In this document: positions 4,359-22,969 of the stretch, piece after piece
Layout: every line of letters starts with the position of its first letter
Numbering within the stretch: the stretch's first letter is position 1
Source of the DNA: a virus
IMG/VR virus record: IMGVR_UViG_3300027733_000212
Location: 1 to 22,969 of that record
Direction: 5' to 3' (one strand)
Length of the DNA: 22,969 bases
Notes under the pieces: model-generated
The model's input: the letters and a program-made list of their open reading frames with translations, nothing else
Told to the model about the DNA's origin: nothing
Database searches by the model: none
Program-made: the position numbers and the translations under genes

Positions 4359-4787
4359 ATGGCTGACACTAGATGGTATTACGACACTAAAACAAAAACT
4401 TGGAAACCGATGAGTTCACTTCCTAAAGGTGGTTTATATTCTTTTCCAAAAGAATATATTAGAGATACTCCTCCCAAGAAACCTCAACCTGTGCCAACGC
4501 CTACCTTTACTACGGTAAAGCCAACACCAAAGCCAACGCCAACAGTAACTAAGAAGCCAACACCCAAGGTAACAAAAACACCAGAGGTAATTCTTCCACC
4601 AGTGGATACTTCAACAGCAACTGTTAAGCCTAAGCCAAAGGTTAAAAAACCAACAGTAACCCCTAAGCCAACACCTAAACCAACACCAAAACCCACACCT
4701 AAAGTAACAGTAACCCCTAAGCCAACACCTAAGCCAACACCTAAGAAAACAATCGGCTCCCAATTTGGCTACATAGGAAGAGGATAA
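4359..4787 (+). CDS. Lys-Pro-Thr repeat protein, 142 residues
   Basis: The first ~40 residues are a folded-looking segment (DTRWYYDTKTKTWKPMSSLP) with several aromatics. From about residue 47 to 135 the protein is a low-complexity (K-P-T-P)n array, broken by short Val/Thr pieces such as VILPPVDTSTATV. Such Pro-Lys-Thr tracts are usually extended and positively charged, as in cell-wall-spanning linkers or nucleic-acid-binding tails. No catalytic motif is visible. AAAGGA lies about ten bases upstream of the ATG. The next gene starts two bases after the stop. A virion role is inferred from position. Confidence 0.85.
   Translation: MADTRWYYDTKTKTWKPMSSLPKGGLYSFPKEYIRDTPPKKPQPVPTPTFTTVKPTPKPTPTVTKKPTPKVTKTPEVILPPVDTSTATVKPKPKVKKPTVTPKPTPKPTPKPTPKVTVTPKPTPKPTPKKTIGSQFGYIGRG
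4515..4746 (+). repeat. Degenerate 12-bp coding repeats (Lys-Pro-Thr-Pro)
   Basis: Units of the form AAGCCAACACCT repeat in frame, most regularly at about 4665-4745, and encode KPTP. Third positions vary between copies, so the array is old enough to have diverged but could still change length by slippage or unequal recombination. Confidence 0.8.
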
Positions 4788-16283: not shown

Positions 16284-17258
16284 GTGCCAACAACACCAGC
16301 CACGTCAACAACGACATCGACGATGTCGAACTTGATCCAAACGGCGTATGACAAGTACATTGAGTTTAACCTTCGTTCAGAACCAATGTTCCGCAAGTTT
16401 GCGGACAAGCGTCCTGTCGATGTAACAAACCCAGGTAACACTGTCGTATTTCAGGTCTACACAGATCTATCACGCCAAACATCAGCACTAACACAGACAC
16501 AAGATCCAGATGCAGTAGAGCTCAGCAACACCAACCGAGTTCACGTAACAGTGAACGAGTATGGTAATGCTGTTCTAACAACTGAGCGTCTTGCTCTTGA
16601 GTCTCTTTCAGCAATCGACCCAGCAGTTGCAGACATGTTGTCTTTCAACATGCGTGATTCATTAGACTCACTTGTGTGGACTAAGCTCACAGCTCTAGCA
16701 ACAGGTCGTTATACAGGAACAACTTCTGCTGACGAATCAACTGTCAACGGACAAGATGTTTCTGCTTCAACTTCAGCTCCTAACTTCACAGCAGCACTTG
16801 CTCGCCGTGGTGTTGCAAAGCTACGTGGAGCAAATGTACAGACACGCGAAGGCGGTCTTTACACTGCACTAATCCACCCAGATGTTTCATACGATCTTCG
16901 TTCTGAAGCACAAACATCAGGATCTGCCGTATGGCAGCTTCCTCACACATACACCGAAGCAGGTGTAGGTAACCTATGGTCTGGCGAAATCGGAATCTTC
17001 GATCAGGTTCGCTATATCGAAACACCTCGTGCCGAAGCCCTATCAGGTTCTGGTACATCAAAGGTATACGGAACAGTTCTTCTTGGAAAGCAGGCTCTTC
17101 TTGAGGCTGTCTCATACGAGCCAAAGACTGTTATCGGTCCAGTTACAGATAAGTTGATGCGCTTCCGCCCAGCGGGTTGGAAGGGTCTACTTGGATGGAA
17201 CGTCTTCCGTACAGAAGCACGTTACGTTATCAAGACCAAGTCAAGCATCGCTGTTTAA
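16284..17258 (+). CDS. Major capsid protein, N4-gp56 type
   Basis: This 324-residue protein builds the icosahedral shell. Its sequence reads like the N4-gp56 family of HK97-fold coat proteins. It has a Thr/Ser-rich start followed by a helix (LIQTAYDKYIEFNLRSEPMF), then KFADKRPVDVTNPGNTVVFQ entering the first strands. A long spine-helix region lies around residues 100-130 (ERLALESLSAIDPAVADMLS), followed by a Thr/Ser/Asp-rich loop (about 140-165). The C-terminal strands carry KALLEA-like, YEPKTVIG and WKGLLGWNVFR. The start is GTG with a good ribosome site. A strong hairpin follows the stop, as expected for the most abundantly translated late gene. No maturation protease is seen near it, so a cleaved delta domain is unlikely. 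Confidence 0.94.
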   Translation: MPTTPATSTTTSTMSNLIQTAYDKYIEFNLRSEPMFRKFADKRPVDVTNPGNTVVFQVYTDLSRQTSALTQTQDPDAVELSNTNRVHVTVNEYGNAVLTTERLALESLSAIDPAVADMLSFNMRDSLDSLVWTKLTALATGRYTGTTSADESTVNGQDVSASTSAPNFTAALARRGVAKLRGANVQTREGGLYTALIHPDVSYDLRSEAQTSGSAVWQLPHTYTEAGVGNLWSGEIGIFDQVRYIETPRAEALSGSGTSKVYGTVLLGKQALLEAVSYEPKTVIGPVTDKLMRFRPAGWKGLLGWNVFRTEARYVIKTKSSIAV

Positions 17259-17265
17259 TTTGGCG

Positions 17266-17291
17266 GAGAGGGGCAGGCAACTGCCCCTCTC
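17266..17291 (+). terminator. Stem-loop terminator after the major capsid gene
   Basis: An 11-bp perfect stem, 17266-17276 with 17281-17291, closes on a GCAA tetraloop (GNRA type, very stable). It begins eight bases after the capsid stop codon. The 3' flank TACTTTAAGG has only a short T-run, so it may be a partial terminator or a 3' mRNA stabiliser that lets capsid mRNA accumulate over the downstream genes. Confidence 0.8.
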
Positions 17292-17306
17292 TACTTTAAG
17301 GAAACT

Positions 17307-17519
17307 ATGAATGAAGATCTCGATCTAATAACACCGCTTCAGGCTTATGCCTTCGAAGCACATGAAATGTATAAAGCGTTTATGGACGCTGGTTTTTCAG
17401 ATGGTGAAGCTTGGGATTTATTACTACGCCAGTTACCAGAGTGGGAATTTCCCGCACCAATGTTCGATAACGACATGGATGATTATGAAGAAGAGGATGA
17501 AGATGACCAAGATGTGTAA
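17307..17519 (+). CDS. Small acidic protein, 70 residues
   Basis: The N-terminal 45 residues look helical and folded (LQAYAFEAHEMYKAFMDAGF, then DGEAWDLLLRQLPEW). The last ~20 residues are almost entirely Asp/Glu. AAGGA lies five bases upstream of the ATG at 17307, just beyond the capsid terminator. The function is not recognised. A capsid-associated or assembly role is guessed from position only. The acidic tail's last codons overlap the possible start of the next tiny ORF. Confidence 0.82.
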   Translation: MNEDLDLITPLQAYAFEAHEMYKAFMDAGFSDGEAWDLLLRQLPEWEFPAPMFDNDMDDYEEEDEDDQDV

Positions 17520-17556
17520 GAAGTGTGGCAAAGCTAAGTCAAAGTGTAAGTGCTAA
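17503..17556 (+). CDS. Putative 17-residue four-cysteine miniprotein
   Basis: The ORF reads MTKMCKKCGKAKSKCKC. The CxxC pair (C5, C8) and CxC pair (C15, C17) in a Lys-rich context resemble a minimal zinc knuckle. Its ATG lies inside the upstream acidic gene with GAGGATGA as a possible ribosome site; ATG at 17512 is an alternative start that keeps all cysteines. Its TAA shares an A with the ATG of the next gene at 17556. The same frame is open back to 17347, but that part reads as a shadow of the acidic gene. The coding status is tentative because of the size. Confidence 0.5.
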   Translation: MTKMCKKCGKAKSKCKC

Positions 17557-17714
17557 TGCCAAAGAAAAAGCAAGTCTGGGATAAACCAAACCCTAAAAAA
17601 GTTTCTAAGCCTTTAACTGCTGCCCAAAAGGCATCAGCTAAAGCAGCAGCTAAGTCTGCTGGACGACCATATCCAAACCTAGTTGACAACATGAGAGCAG
17701 CAAAGAAGAAGTAA
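17556..17714 (+). CDS. Small basic protein, 52 residues
   Basis: The ORF begins MPKKKQVWDKPNPKKVSKPL and continues with an Ala/Lys-rich helix, then GRPYPNLVDNMRAAKKK. It overlaps the preceding stop by one base (TAATG), and the next ATG follows its TAA directly. Such spacing indicates translational reinitiation in a chain of tiny genes. The high Lys and Pro content and the GRPYPNLVDN segment are reminiscent of short proteins I have seen near capsid genes of environmental phages, but I cannot name a function. Confidence 0.78.
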   Translation: MPKKKQVWDKPNPKKVSKPLTAAQKASAKAAAKSAGRPYPNLVDNMRAAKKK

Positions 17715-17990
17715 ATGGACCCAAGACTAAAACGAGCAGGTGTGTCTGGCTTTAATAAGCCAAAGGCAACACCTAACCATCCAAAAAAGTCTCACGTTGT
17801 TGTAGCCAAGTCAGGCTCACAAGTTAAGACTATTCGTTTTGGTCAGCAAGGTGTCTCTGGTTCACCACAGAAATCTGGTGAGACAAGCAAGTATCGTCAA
17901 CGACGCCAATCATTTAAGGCTAGACACGCAAAGAATATATCTAAAGGTGTTATGTCGGCAGCCTATTGGGCAGACAAGGTGAAATGGTAA
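17715..17990 (+). CDS. Conserved small basic phage protein (KSHVVVAK / SFKARHAKN type)
   Basis: This 91-residue protein starts MDPRLKRAGVSGFNKPKATP. It has NHPKKSHVVVAKSG, an IRFGQQGVSGSP core, an Arg-rich RQRRQSFKARHAKNI helix, and ends MSAAYWADKVKW. I recognise this as a short conserved family frequent in environmental phages, listed as a domain of unknown function (I believe DUF6321, but this needs checking). The basic helix and two beta-like segments suggest nucleic-acid binding. The start codon directly follows the preceding TAA, and its own stop overlaps the next ATG. Confidence 0.85.
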   Translation: MDPRLKRAGVSGFNKPKATPNHPKKSHVVVAKSGSQVKTIRFGQQGVSGSPQKSGETSKYRQRRQSFKARHAKNISKGVMSAAYWADKVKW

Positions 17991-18244
17991 TGGCAAAGGT
18001 ATTTCGTGGACCAACATACAAGTACAGACCTGGTCGTGAGTATGACCTATGGTTTGTTTCTTATCCTATTGGTAAGACCGTTGTTAAAGCTAATGGCGTT
18101 TGGAAAACAATTGTTGTCCCACAAGATTCAGATCTAAAAACATACCAGCGCGTATTACGTGGTGGTTATGACAACGTCATAACAGATGCAGAAGCAACAG
18201 AATTAACAGCAGCGGGATACGGAGATTACGTTTTCAATGTCTAA
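17990..18244 (+). CDS. Hypothetical beta-rich protein, 84 residues
   Basis: The frame is open from ATG 17966, but the TAATG overlap at 17988-17992 and AAGGTGA seven bases upstream favour the ATG at 17990. The product begins MAKVFRGPTYKYRPGREYDL and is rich in Tyr, Val and Gly, with alternating strands (WFVSYPIGKTVVKA, then VWKTIVVPQD). It ends with a helix and GYGDYVFNV. It is probably a small beta-barrel-like virion or connector piece; no family is recognised. It overlaps the next gene by eight bases. Confidence 0.8.
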   Translation: MAKVFRGPTYKYRPGREYDLWFVSYPIGKTVVKANGVWKTIVVPQDSDLKTYQRVLRGGYDNVITDAEATELTAAGYGDYVFNV

Positions 18245-18479
18245 TTGTAGATCAGGTTGTAAGACCCAAGACCATGCTAACTGGGGCGAGTGCGCCAAAG
18301 CAGCCAACTTCAGTATCACAGATCCGCTATCTAATGCAGCAAACAAGCTGGCTAATAGAGAACTTGATGCGTATAGAAACGCAAGAAAAGATGGCATTCA
18401 GCCAGCATCAACCAAGATGAAGGACATCCAGTCGGCTGTCCGTATGTCTGATAAAGCAGGAAAGGCGTTACAAGCATAA
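18237..18479 (+). CDS. Small cysteine-containing phage protein, 80 residues
   Basis: It begins MSNCRSGCKTQDHANWGECA, with three cysteines and a His (C4, C8, H13, C19) that could bind a metal. A helical remainder follows (LSNAANKLANRELDAYRNAR, then MKDIQSAVRMSDKAGKALQA). Short proteins with this CxxxC...GEC start and a DAYRNAR helix occur beside capsid genes in actinobacterial phages as far as I recall; the role is unknown. It overlaps the previous gene by eight bases, and its TAA overlaps the ATG of the adaptor gene at 18479. Confidence 0.83.
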   Translation: MSNCRSGCKTQDHANWGECAKAANFSITDPLSNAANKLANRELDAYRNARKDGIQPASTKMKDIQSAVRMSDKAGKALQA

Positions 18480-19378
18480 TGGCTACGTTAAATCAATTAA
18501 CAGAACAAACGCTTGGTGAGATGAATGGCTATGTCCGTAACCAGGAATCAGTCACGATTGCACTTAACGTTACCAACAGCAATGATTTATCTATTGCAGT
18601 TGATGACGCAACTGCTATTAGTAAGGGAATCATCGAGATCGATGATGAACTGCTATACGTAAAAAAGTCTATCGCAGCAAGTGGTACGTTATCAATCCTT
18701 GGAACCACAGCTAATCCTGTTGGTAGGGGATGGCGTGGAACCACAGCAACTAGCCACGTATCTGGCTCAGTCGTAAGAAACAATCCTTTATTCCCAAGGA
18801 CACAAGTTAAACGAGCGATACTTGAAACTATTAAGGGAATGAATTTCCCTGTCATTAAAGAAACAGATTTTGATTTTACTGGTTCACAATACGCATACTC
18901 AATCCCAGATGAAGTAGTAGATATTACTGGTGTCTCATGGGAACTTCCAGATTCAACTGGAGTATGGGCTCTTATTAAGAGATGGCGTATTGATACCAAC
19001 TACTATAACGAAACAACAAACACATACGGTCAGGCTATTGTGCTTAACGAAGCACCTATGGGTGGTGCTCGAGTTAACGTGCAGTACACAGCATACCCAA
19101 CAACCATCACAGCTAATCAAGAGTTGACAGTCAGTGGATTGCCAGCATCATGTGAAGACGTTGTACGTCTTGGTGCTATGTATCGCCTTCTTTCAACGGT
19201 AGACCCAGGCAAGGTTATTGCCACATCAGTTTCAGCAGACGCATTAGATCAACCAGTATCTGCTGGTGCATCTACTACTACTGCTAAATATCTTTTCCAG
19301 CTTTACTCCGTCCGCCTTGCGGAAGAGGTTGCAAAGCAGCAAGCCAACTTCCTCAACATAATCCAGTATCAGAGGTGA
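18479..19378 (+). CDS. Putative head-tail adaptor / neck protein
   Basis: The 299-residue product lies between capsid-associated genes and fibres, where podoviruses encode the adaptor joining the portal to the tail. The N-terminal ~110 residues are beta-rich: IIEIDDELLYVKK, then GRGWRGTTATSHVSGSVV, a strand-turn module also seen in the fibre N-terminus. A central part follows with NPLFPRTQVKRAILETIKGM and YSIPDEVVDITGVSWEL. The C-terminal helical part has CEDVVRLGAMYRLLS and ends RLAEEVAKQQANFLNIIQYQR. A helical C-terminus ending in a basic segment fits insertion into the portal, but this is inferred. It could alternatively be a nozzle or tubular protein. Confidence 0.72.
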   Translation: MATLNQLTEQTLGEMNGYVRNQESVTIALNVTNSNDLSIAVDDATAISKGIIEIDDELLYVKKSIAASGTLSILGTTANPVGRGWRGTTATSHVSGSVVRNNPLFPRTQVKRAILETIKGMNFPVIKETDFDFTGSQYAYSIPDEVVDITGVSWELPDSTGVWALIKRWRIDTNYYNETTNTYGQAIVLNEAPMGGARVNVQYTAYPTTITANQELTVSGLPASCEDVVRLGAMYRLLSTVDPGKVIATSVSADALDQPVSAGASTTTAKYLFQLYSVRLAEEVAKQQANFLNIIQYQR

Positions 19379-19381
19379 TGA

Positions 19382-21082
19382 ATGCCAACCCAATTACGTT
19401 TCTATAGTTCAACCGCAGCTAAAACGACTCTTGCTGCATCAATCAGTTCTTCAGCAACAAGCTTAACACTTGCTGCTGCAAGCAATCTACCTTCATCGTA
19501 TCCATACACACTCATTCTTGAAAAGGATACAGCCAATGAAGAAGTAGTTGAAGTCACCAGTCTGGTAGGTACTGCCTATCAGATCACTCGCAACATTGAT
19601 GTATCGGGTGCTAAGGCACACGCCTTCGGTGCTAACGTTGAACACGGTGTATCGGCTCGAGACTTTACCGAGTCTCGCCAACACGAAGTAGCAACCTCTG
19701 GTCACCACGGTGTAACTGGAGATATCGTTGGCACAGGTGGAGCACAGACCTTAACAACTAAGACACTCACCGCTCCTATTATTAACGCAGCCACAATCTC
19801 TGGTGCGTTTACATCAACAGCAACCATTACTGGTGGAACAATTACAGGTGCAGTAATCACTGGACTCGCAACACCTACCAATACATCTGACGCTGCTACT
19901 AAAGGTTACATCGATACGCAGACAGTATCGGCTGCTGCTTCAGCAAGCAGTGCTTCAGTGTCAGCATCAAGTTCTGCTACCTCTGCCTCATCTGCTGCCA
20001 CTAGTGCATCCAGTTCGCTAACTAGCCAAGGATCTGCTGCTGTGTCAGCAAGCTCTGCTGCTACCTCAGCATCAAGTGCATTTACGTATGCAAGTACAAT
20101 GGCTGCTAGTGTTACATCAGCTGGTATCAGTGCTTCAAGTGCAGCAACCAGTGCGTCATCAGCATTAACATCACAGAACTCAGCAGCAACTTCTGCAACC
20201 AGCGCAGCAACATCAGCCACTTCGGCTGCTGCTTCTGCTACAACCGCTGCTGCATCAGTGGCAACAATCTCAAGCCTTGCGACTACAGCAACTAACTCGG
20301 CTGCAGCTGCTGCTACGTCAGCAACTTCTGCAGCAACTAGCGCAACCAGTGCTGCTGCTAGTGCTACCACTGCATCAGCTTCTGCTGCTACTGCGGTAGC
20401 AAGCACAGCAACGGCAGTAACATCAGCAGCAACTGCAGTAAGCAGTGCTGCGACAGCAGTCACATCAGCAGCACAGGCAGCAACGTCTGCTGCGAGCGCA
20501 GCTACTTCAGCATCATCAGCATTGACAAGCCAGACAGCAGCAGCAACAAGTGCTGCTTCTGCTGCCACGTCAGCATCGTCTGCTGCTACAACTTATGACG
20601 ACTTTGATGATCGCTACTTAGGTAGCAAGGCATCTGCTCCTTCCGTAGACAATGATGGCAACACACTTCTTGTAGGTGCTATCTATTGGAACTCAGCACT
20701 TAACAATATGTATGTATGGTCTGGATCTGTTTGGGTTCAGATCGCTACTACCAGTATTTACTCAGCACCAACGCTTGGCAGCACGGTTATACCATCTGCC
20801 ACAACAGTAACAACTGTTGCAGCATTAACCCTCAATAATGCAACACTTACTGGGACCTTAACAGCGGGTGCTTCGTCTGGAACCAATGGTCAATATTTAC
20901 AATCAACAGCAACAGGAACTCAGTGGGCTTCTGTTGCTGGGTATTTAGCACCAACACTTGGCACAACAGTAGTTACATCTGGTGTGACGGTATCAACAAT
21001 TTCAGGATTAACCGACGTAGTACTCAACGGTCCAGGAAGTGTGGCAGATGAACTGGCACTACTTCTTATGGGCGCACTCTAA
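19382..21082 (+). CDS. Tail fibre protein with Ser/Ala/Thr shaft
   Basis: This 566-residue fibre has a virion-docking N-terminus (about 1-105), with EEVVEVTSLVGTAYQITRNI, then HAFGANVEHGVSARDFTESR. A beta-repeat segment follows (TISGAFTSTATITGGTITG) with the common fibre motif TPTNTSDAATKGYIDTQ near 160-177. Residues ~183-403 are a low-complexity Ser/Ala/Thr shaft with an approximate seven-residue period. The shaft is followed by YDDFDDRYLGSKASAPSVDN and a small beta domain with VGAIYWNSALNNMYVWSGS, typical of phage fibres. Two related C-terminal copies (APTLGSTVIPSATTVTT and APTLGTTVVTSGVTVST) close the chain. No intramolecular chaperone domain is visible. It likely forms trimers that contact the host; the glycine-rich protein downstream may supply the tip. 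Confidence 0.88.
   Translation: MPTQLRFYSSTAAKTTLAASISSSATSLTLAAASNLPSSYPYTLILEKDTANEEVVEVTSLVGTAYQITRNIDVSGAKAHAFGANVEHGVSARDFTESRQHEVATSGHHGVTGDIVGTGGAQTLTTKTLTAPIINAATISGAFTSTATITGGTITGAVITGLATPTNTSDAATKGYIDTQTVSAAASASSASVSASSSATSASSAATSASSSLTSQGSAAVSASSAATSASSAFTYASTMAASVTSAGISASSAATSASSALTSQNSAATSATSAATSATSAAASATTAAASVATISSLATTATNSAAAAATSATSAATSATSAAASATTASASAATAVASTATAVTSAATAVSSAATAVTSAAQAATSAASAATSASSALTSQTAAATSAASAATSASSAATTYDDFDDRYLGSKASAPSVDNDGNTLLVGAIYWNSALNNMYVWSGSVWVQIATTSIYSAPTLGSTVIPSATTVTTVAALTLNNATLTGTLTAGASSGTNGQYLQSTATGTQWASVAGYLAPTLGTTVVTSGVTVSTISGLTDVVLNGPGSVADELALLLMGAL
19928..20595 (+). repeat. Degenerate Ser/Ala/Thr coding repeat (fibre shaft)
   Basis: Units such as TCTGCTGCTAC and TCAGCAGCAAC recur with synonymous variation and encode SAATSAS-like blocks. 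The array produces a long open frame on the opposite strand (19906-20568) that is only a compositional shadow. The number of copies sets fibre length and could vary between relatives. Confidence 0.85.
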
Positions 21083-21099
21083 ACGAAAGGTAGTAACTA

Positions 21100-21402
21100 A
21101 TGGCTACAACAACTAAAGCACTGTTCCGTGGAGCAGCAGCAACATCCAGTACAACTCTATACACAGTACCATCAGCAACAACTACAGTAGTAACTAATAT
21201 TGTAGTAACTAATACAGCAGCAGCCGTAGGAAATTTTACACTACTTCTTGATGATGTATCTATTGCAACACTTGTTACCGTTGGTGCTAATGATTCAACA
21301 ACTATTGACTTAAAGCAAGTCCTTGCAACTACAAAAACAATTAAGGGTTTAGCAACTGCTACAACTATTAACTTTCATATTAGCGGAGTGGAGATTTCTT
21401 AA
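21100..21402 (+). CDS. Small beta-rich tail-associated protein, 100 residues
   Basis: The sequence alternates Thr/Val/Ala strands: TTLYTVPSATTTVVTNIVVT, then VGNFTLLLDDVSIATLV, IDLKQVLATTKTIKGLA, and a final TTINFHISGVEIS. This looks like a beta-sandwich of about eight strands. Proteins of this size and pattern commonly lie between fibre genes in environmental and actinobacterial phages; they are thought to be minor tail or fibre-joint proteins, but no function is established as far as I know. GAAAGG precedes the ATG, and its TAA overlaps the next ATG. Confidence 0.82.
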   Translation: MATTTKALFRGAAATSSTTLYTVPSATTTVVTNIVVTNTAAAVGNFTLLLDDVSIATLVTVGANDSTTIDLKQVLATTKTIKGLATATTINFHISGVEIS

Positions 21403-22325
21403 TGACTCCTGTTGCAAAATTATCTGGTGGTTTAAGATACAATAGTATGCTGGCAGGAAACCCTGCATATGTAAAAAGTGTTGTAGTTGAAGCACTTGTT
21501 ATTGCTGGTGGTGGTGGTGGCGGTAGCACTAATGCTGCATATTACTCAGGAGCAGGAGCTGGTGCTGGCGGTTTTCTTTATTTTTCTTCATTAACTATTG
21601 CTGGTGCAACAACTGTTACAGTTGGTGCTGGTGGTGCTGCTGGTACTGGATCGGGTGATGGAACAAATGGTGCTGATTCGCGCATTGGGACAGCAACTTT
21701 AGTTCTTGGCGGTGGTGGTGGTAAAGGTGCTGCTGGTGGTCCTGGTAAAAGCGGTGGTTCAGGTGGTGGTTCAACTCAAAACGGCGCAGTAGGTGCTGGA
21801 ACATCAGGACAAGGAAATAATGGTGGTGTGGGTAACCAAGGCGGTGGCGGTGGTGGTGGTGCTGGCGCAGTTGGTGGCACTGGCGATACACCACAAGGTA
21901 TAGGTCGTTCAGGTGGTGCTGGTTCTAATGCTTATTCATCTTGGGCTACAGCAACATCATCAGGTGTAAGTGGTTTTTACGCAGGTGGTGGCGGTGGTGG
22001 TTACACAACTTACTATCTTAGTTCAGGTATTGTTGCTAATGGTGGTTCAGGTGGTGGCGGTACAGGTGGTGGAGAACCATCTGGTTCAAAAATGTTAACT
22101 TCTACAGCAGGAACTGCAAACACTGGTGGCGGTGGTGGTGCTGCTGGTGGCTATACAGGTGGTGCTGGACTTGAACCTGCTAGAGCAGGTGGTAGTGGAA
22201 TAGTAATTATTCGCTATCCAGATACTTTTGATGCTATGACATCAACAACTGGCTCACCAACTGTTTATGTTACTGGTGGATATCGTTATTACAAATTTAC
22301 AGGTACAGGGAGCGTGACACCATAA
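21402..22325 (+). CDS. Glycine-rich receptor-binding/adhesin-like protein
   Basis: The 307-residue product has a short N-terminus, then VVVEALVIAGGGGGGSTNAA opening a glycine-rich domain (about residues 30-275) with many runs of 4-7 Gly. These are separated by beta segments such as ATTVTVGAGGAAG and ADSRIGTATLVLGGGGG, and the domain closes with the typical GGSGIVIIRYP. This arrangement is known from glycine-rich domains of phage tail tips, where polyglycine loops form the host-contact surface. The C-terminal ~35 residues (TVYVTGGYRYYKFTGTGSVT) form a final beta unit. GTGGAG upstream of the ATG is a good ribosome site. The TAATG junction on both sides suggests coupled translation. It probably determines host range together with the fibre. 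Confidence 0.87.
   Translation: MTPVAKLSGGLRYNSMLAGNPAYVKSVVVEALVIAGGGGGGSTNAAYYSGAGAGAGGFLYFSSLTIAGATTVTVGAGGAAGTGSGDGTNGADSRIGTATLVLGGGGGKGAAGGPGKSGGSGGGSTQNGAVGAGTSGQGNNGGVGNQGGGGGGGAGAVGGTGDTPQGIGRSGGAGSNAYSSWATATSSGVSGFYAGGGGGGYTTYYLSSGIVANGGSGGGGTGGGEPSGSKMLTSTAGTANTGGGGGAAGGYTGGAGLEPARAGGSGIVIIRYPDTFDAMTSTTGSPTVYVTGGYRYYKFTGTGSVTP
21507..22200 (+). repeat. GGT-rich polyglycine coding region
   Basis: Runs of GGT/GGC codons encode polyglycine tracts. The DNA is low-complexity and slippage-prone, and a 92-residue open frame on the reverse strand (21616-21894) is a compositional artefact. Copy-number changes here would alter the tip loops of the adhesin. Confidence 0.75.
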
Positions 22326-22969
22326 TGGCACATTTTGCACAAGTTGATGAGAATAATATTGTAACCCAGGTACTTGTAGTTACCAATGACGAAGAACACC
22401 GAGGTCAAGAATTTCTTGCAAACGATTTAGGTCTTGGCGGTACCTGGATACAAACTTCGTACAATGCCAACATTAGAAATAAGTTTGCTGGAATTGGAGA
22501 TATTTACGACCCAGTTAATGACATCTTTAAAATAGATGAAACTAAATATTCTTACAGAGATTCCTGGGTAGGGGTTACCAAGCCAACAAAGCCATCTATT
22601 ATGTTTGACTCTGTAGTTCGATCAGGAAATAACTGGACTATGGCTGTCATTAACCAAGCATTTCCTCAAGCGTTTCAACGATGGGGTTACATGCACCATC
22701 ACAACTTTGAAAGTTTCTCAAAAGGCTTAGATAATTTTGATGCTACTGTAACGGTAGTTCGTAACCCTGTTGATTCTCTTGCATCAAGCATCATTGCTTT
22801 TAAGCTTGAAACAGATGAACAGATCAAGCATCGTGCAAGTAGTGGAACGGCATCTTATGGAGGAGTAGGAGGTGCAGACTACAAAACTCGCACCAATGAT
22901 TTATGCCGTTCGATTGGTGCGTCTGGATTAGGAGATCCCAAAGACTTTGGATGCTTGTTAAATCCGGAT
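22325..22969 (+). CDS. Tail-region protein fused to a sulfotransferase-like domain (3' truncated)
   Basis: The gene runs off the window after 215 codons. Residues 1-70 (MAHFAQVDENNIVTQVLVV, then GGTWIQTSYNANIR and GIGDIYDPVNDIF) match a short domain frequent next to phage fibre genes, of unknown function. From ~90 the protein looks like a PAPS-dependent sulfotransferase. It has a strand and loop SIMFDSVVRSGNNWT (91-105), where R99-S-G-N-N-W corresponds to the 5'-phosphosulfate loop KSGTTW. A His cluster (H124-H126) follows, then TVTVVRNPVDSLASS (141-155), which matches the 3'-phosphate motif RNxxDxxxS with R146 and S154. The His-to-Arg spacing of 22 and Arg-to-Ser spacing of 8 equal those I recall for SULT1A1 (H108, R130, S138). 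The gap from loop to His is shorter (25 versus 60). The substrate is unknown. The start overlaps the previous stop (TAATG) with AGGGAG upstream. Confidence 0.82.
   Translation, partial: MAHFAQVDENNIVTQVLVVTNDEEHRGQEFLANDLGLGGTWIQTSYNANIRNKFAGIGDIYDPVNDIFKIDETKYSYRDSWVGVTKPTKPSIMFDSVVRSGNNWTMAVINQAFPQAFQRWGYMHHHNFESFSKGLDNFDATVTVVRNPVDSLASSIIAFKLETDEQIKHRASSGTASYGGVGGADYKTRTNDLCRSIGASGLGDPKDFGCLLNPD

Follow-up and report, generated by a model that had tools for sequence, protein, structure and literature searches.

Does the gene cut off by the right-hand end of this viral DNA encode a phage sulfotransferase, and if so, where would its sulfate donor come from and what would it modify? The window, meaning the whole stretch of 22,969 nucleotides that was analysed, is the entire IMG/VR record IMGVR_UViG_3300027733_000212, from a phage that we take to be freshwater, judging by the kind of metagenome and by its relatives. 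Here, we describe its last open reading frame (22325..22969, + strand), which runs for 215 codons with no stop before the window's end and, since the window is the entire record, is incomplete at 22969. Coordinates of this gene, its parts and its neighbours are collected in Table 1. A preliminary description had reported RSGNNW from residue 99, HHH from residue 124 and VVRNPVDSLAS from residue 144 (R146, S154) in one frame with the N-terminal MAHFAQVDENN, and all four lie exactly where it placed them.

Table 1. Features of the locus, with positions in the window unless another contig is named.
Feature	Position	Strand	Evidence or remark
Tail fibre protein (phrog_38058)	19382..21082	+	E 6e-124
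Small tail-cluster protein (phrog_1276)	21100..21402	+	PHROG match
Glycine-rich adhesin-like protein (Gly_rich_2)	21402..22325	+	Pfam E 2.4e-11; stop overlaps ATG at 22325
ORF of N-domain plus sulfotransferase domain	22325..22969	+	Gene cut by record end; intact length 274 aa in L004/L011
N-domain (phrog_7759), residues 1-69	22325..22531	+	phrog_7759 E 2.4e-21
Sulfotransferase domain, portion within window (residues 87-169)	22583..22831	+	Intact-gene comparison, profile and fold matches
RSGNNW, predicted 5'-phosphosulfate loop, R99-W104	22619..22636	+	Aligns with PKSGTHW of SULTs; R99 conserved
H126, candidate catalytic base	22700..22702	+	14/15 relatives; role suggested by place between two PAPS motifs
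RNPVDSLAS, predicted 3'-phosphate motif, R146-S154	22760..22786	+	Aligns with RNPRDVLVS of SULTs; R146, D150, S154 invariant
Divergent contig end	22832..22969	+	Absent from gene in three other contigs
P0003, APS-kinase-like plus NMNAT-like HxGH nucleotidyltransferase, 248 residues	L004:5567-6313 (outside window)		

The rest of the gene was recovered from three other near-identical IMG/VR contigs of the same phage, which carry an intact version of 274 residues (protein P0002) and match the window gene at 100% as far as 22831. Against the 41.5-kb contig (L004/L011), the window is 100% identical over 16325-22831 and 99.9-100% identical over the earlier aligned stretches. The final 138 bases of the window, encoding residues 170-215, are wholly different from the three other contigs and gave no match in same-phage contigs, IMG/VR (exact 31-mer) or the phage collection; they are probably an assembly join at the contig end, or a rare variant. 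The reading frame continues uninterrupted across this tail, as it would if the window carried a genuine variant with the second half of the domain exchanged and the enzyme broken, but the tail sits exactly at the contig end, is unmatched in all searches and gives way to an intact gene in the other three contigs from this phage, so that such a variant is very unlikely. Since an assembly join is the best reading of the tail, we leave residues 170-215 of the window uninterpreted, and the domain earlier drawn over residues 90-215 holds as far as residue 169, the remainder falling outside it.

With the window fragment as query, neither Pfam nor NCBIfam gave a match; identification took the full protein and a profile of the family. 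Residues 87-274 of intact P0002 on their own match Sulfotransfer_1 weakly (E 0.0065, under the Pfam cut-off). Further searches found relatives of the domain in contigs L012, L066-L073, L075, L077, L081, L083, L130 and L139, and none among 50,697 phage records. With a profile of 15 relatives searched against the PDB, the first 34 matches were all sulfotransferases (best a SULT, E 9.7e-8), with both PAPS motifs aligned to the SULT structures. Single relatives also pass the Sulfotransfer_1 cut-off of 22 bits, namely L067, which has the same two-part architecture (30.7 bits), and L077 and L130, which are without the N-domain (22.8 and 22.6 bits). A template-free model of P0002 (mean pLDDT 87.9) drew only the sulfotransferase superfamily in its top 43 PDB fold matches (best SULT1C3-PAP, E 1.1e-4), at TM-scores of 0.3-0.5 for a query that took in the N-domain too. 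Residues 87-274 of the intact protein are thus a sulfotransferase by homology and fold. The fusion of such a domain to a tail-cluster N-domain, as first proposed, is borne out by the profile, the fold matches and phrog_7759; the outcomes named beforehand as speaking against it failed to appear, in that the predicted structure resembles sulfotransferases and a fibre domain was not assigned by any profile. Single-sequence matches to KICSTOR, WalK and tailspike chains, and coronavirus-spike matches of the family profile at E > 0.6, were discarded as chance. A Colwellia locus (L005) proved a false relative, the matching ORF being unrelated to sulfotransferases.

Compared with the SULT family (PF00685 Sulfotransfer_1; SULT1C3 2h8k, SULT2A8 7eov), P0002 has a like fold, phosphosulfate loop and R...S 3'-phosphate motif, and the conserved H126 between the two motifs is a candidate counterpart of the SULT catalytic His; its domain is shorter (about 188 residues), shares 12-16% identity in fold alignments, has R for K in the loop and sits behind a phage tail-cluster domain. 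Conservation was assessed in 15 sequences, the query and 14 relatives at 17-42% identity. R146, P148, D150 and S154 are present in 15/15, H126 is kept in 14/15, and R99 stands in all 14 sequences with a letter at that position, query included; given this conservation across divergent relatives, the predicted motif set is beyond chance. The Lys-to-Arg change had been raised as a doubt about catalysis, a doubt that falls away now that Arg is seen to be usual, occurring in all relatives that have a letter at this position. Only part of the triple His is borne out, as H126 is conserved and H124 and H125 are without conservation across the 15 sequences.

Substitutions do occur: RCAN replaces the RSGN loop in L067 and L075, and Gln replaces the conserved His in L068, a fragment, which may mean loss of activity in some phages. 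These changes, together with the fusion to a tail-cluster domain, are what might be expected of a domain that has given up catalysis for a structural or ligand-binding part in the tail, for example for PAP or a sulfated ligand. This reading is quite improbable, as R99, H126, R146, D150 and S154 are retained in 14-15 of 15 divergent relatives and an APS-kinase-like gene lies directly behind the fusion in 8 contigs. Since the predicted catalytic residues are conserved, the binding-only use of a sulfated ligand would be the least likely of the roles first proposed. From motifs and model together, P0002 is probably an active enzyme.

P0002 shares its N-domain with a small protein from tail-fibre clusters of phages; in other phages the domain stands alone, at 83-133 aa. 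In phage DSL-LC04 the N-domain at first seemed to be joined to a 2OG-Fe(II) oxygenase, but the two turned out to be encoded by neighbouring genes. A glycine-rich gene is directly upstream of the fusion gene in 10/10 contigs with a readable upstream gene. The preliminary description took the fusion gene to be translationally coupled to this adhesin and to be the last of its cluster. Its start codon does overlap the adhesin stop. The second claim fails, for the fusion gene of the intact contig has P0003, a gene of 248 residues, behind it and then a DUF2061 gene (E 1.2e-15).

This arrangement recurs. The order glycine-rich adhesin, N-domain plus sulfotransferase, P0003-like gene (APS-kinase/nucleotidyltransferase) and DUF2061-like gene is found in 8 contigs (L011, L012, L066, L067, L072, L073, L075 and L081), comprising the window's lineage and seven with fusion proteins 30-46% identical to the query. 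DUF2061 is profile-confirmed in L004 and L012 only and was recognised in the remaining cassette contigs by sequence starts. Junctions between the cassette genes are mostly TAATG or TAGTG overlaps, or 1-base gaps. Contigs L069 and L070 have the fusion, and the kinase gene is absent at that place. Across many phage contigs a DUF2061 membrane protein gene (L004:6310-6525 and equivalents) follows the APS-kinase-like gene. The neighbourhoods of the latter in L074-L153 are islands of modification enzymes, with tryptophan halogenase, carbamoyltransferases, epimerases, glycosyltransferases, JmjC and 2OG-Fe(II) oxygenases.

The kinase half of P0003 matches APS_kinase over residues 2-84 (E 2.7e-16; 60.4 bits, cut-off 21.1) and also APS kinases in the PDB, and residues 4-81 align with human PAPSS1. 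Against the apsK equivalog TIGR00455 it scores 61.1 bits over residues 1-83 only, short of the cut-off of 138.7; by these profile matches P0003 is classed as APS-kinase-like, not as an equivalog. Its structure model is mediocre (pLDDT 71), with fold matches mostly to APS kinases. The nucleotidyltransferase half matched NMN adenylyltransferases first (E 5.7e-6) and other HxGH enzymes, with no ATP sulfurylase among the matches. Relatives of P0003 number at least 593 confirmed stretches in hundreds of viral contigs, with the motifs YGRDVGY and ISAT..R invariant.

With NMN adenylyltransferases as the first matches of one half and a weak nadR match, P0003 could instead be an NAD-salvage enzyme, NadR-like with the order of kinase and NMN adenylyltransferase swapped, in which case its adjacency would be coincidental and the sulfotransferase would use host PAPS. 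We regard this as unlikely. The kinase half is far closer to APS kinases (E 1e-16 to 3e-18) than to NadR and aligns with PAPSS1, and in different phages (L074, L077, L150) the gene immediately upstream of a P0003 relative encodes a sulfotransferase, of three Pfam types in all, a placement not easily accounted for if P0003 is unrelated to PAPS. Moreover, 17/50 contigs with P0003 relatives have a Sulfotransfer_1, _2 or _3 match (E <= 0.001; one further match with an internal stop left out), as against 0/48 control contigs found through the free N-domain, in which APS kinase also numbered 0. The difference gives a Fisher p of 3e-6 for sets unmatched in size and lineage, with related contigs non-independent, and a p of 4e-5, ignoring kinship and with lineage unmatched, when the P0003 side is limited to contigs under 45 kb. 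Such co-occurrence is support for the link, not proof of it. On balance, supply of PAPS by the neighbour P0003 is the reading towards which these matches lean.

PAPS occurs inside cells, and an active enzyme must therefore work during infection, not from the free virion. We propose that P0002, which has its N-terminal domain in common with a small tail-fibre-cluster protein, is a PAPS-dependent sulfotransferase, that the APS-kinase-like P0003 would make or replenish PAPS during infection, and that the sulfotransferase would move sulfate from PAPS to an acceptor in the cytosol. Whatever the acceptor, it is reasonably likely that the sulfotransferase is active and that the cassette serves it. 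More speculatively, the N-domain might dock the enzyme on the receptor-binding complex, with the phage's own adhesin or fibre as acceptor. Because the enzyme carries a tail-cluster domain and is consistently encoded behind the glycine-rich gene, the likeliest acceptors are the receptor-binding proteins of the phage itself, a tentative assignment that falls somewhat short of even chances.

The main rival acceptors are glycan precursors of the host. The enzyme could act on a molecule of the host, be it an envelope glycan precursor, a lipid or a small metabolite, for example as a superinfection block, with N-domain and gene position incidental. Free-standing sulfotransferases without the N-domain do occur in phages with P0003 relatives (e.g. 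L077, L083, L130, L139 and L150), and glycosyltransferases, epimerases and carbamoyltransferases share the same neighbourhoods; in the window's family, however, the enzyme is joined to a tail-cluster domain and comes behind the glycine-rich gene in all ten readable contigs, and a host acceptor seems somewhat unlikely. The full form of the proposal, that phages sulfate their own receptor-binding proteins, with a cassette making PAPS by means of a small two-domain synthetase and an adhesin-docked sulfotransferase changing virion binding, is put forward as a conjecture that is itself doubtful as a whole. An APS-kinase-type gene, a sulfotransferase and an adhesin together offer a testable case for sulfation at phage-host recognition, and some phages may carry a small sulfation kit beside their host-recognition proteins.

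Sulfotransferases have been reported in OM43 phages, where their function is unclear (PMC10580990). Among BFVD matches, the phage sulfotransferases A0A6J5MDE7 (uncultured Caudovirales) and E3SP23 (Prochlorococcus phage P-SSM7) have the same fold and are remote, at 13-16% identity. In the descriptions of these phage sulfotransferases we saw no N-domain fusion or P0003-like neighbour reported. The gene cysC (APS kinase) is found in freshwater and lake phages, where it has been read as assimilatory sulfate reduction (PMC10914622); the likeness to P0003 is that of an APS-kinase-type gene in lake phages, whereas here the kinase is fused to an NMNAT-like domain behind a sulfotransferase. In view of the cassette, some of the phage 'cysC' genes may work for sulfation, not cysteine synthesis. 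PAPS synthetase (PAPSS1/2) and bifunctional Sat/APS kinase resemble P0003 in having an APS-kinase domain on the same chain as a nucleotidyltransferase motif of HxGH type, but the nucleotidyltransferase half of P0003 is without detectable ATP-sulfurylase homology and resembles NMN adenylyltransferase. Phage sulfotransferases and phage cysC were each known already; for the fusion and the cassette, we found no report in the literature searched (phage sulfotransferases with PAPS synthesis or fibre sulfation; mostly open-access, no preprints).

Nearest to the terminase and major capsid protein are those of an uncultured phage (46-48%), followed by Streptomyces phages (42-45%), a weak hint that the host may be actinobacterial. 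The acI lake actinobacteria, one possible host group, have no assimilatory sulfate reduction (PMC5301498), so that a phage infecting cells of this kind would have to provide PAPS itself. If the proposal is true, a self-sulfation cassette could work in hosts without sulfate assimilation of their own.

Elsewhere in the window, at about 4690-4706, ORF 4359-4787 encodes 142 residues as compared to 124 in an otherwise near-identical contig piece (L155), apparently a repeat-unit change.
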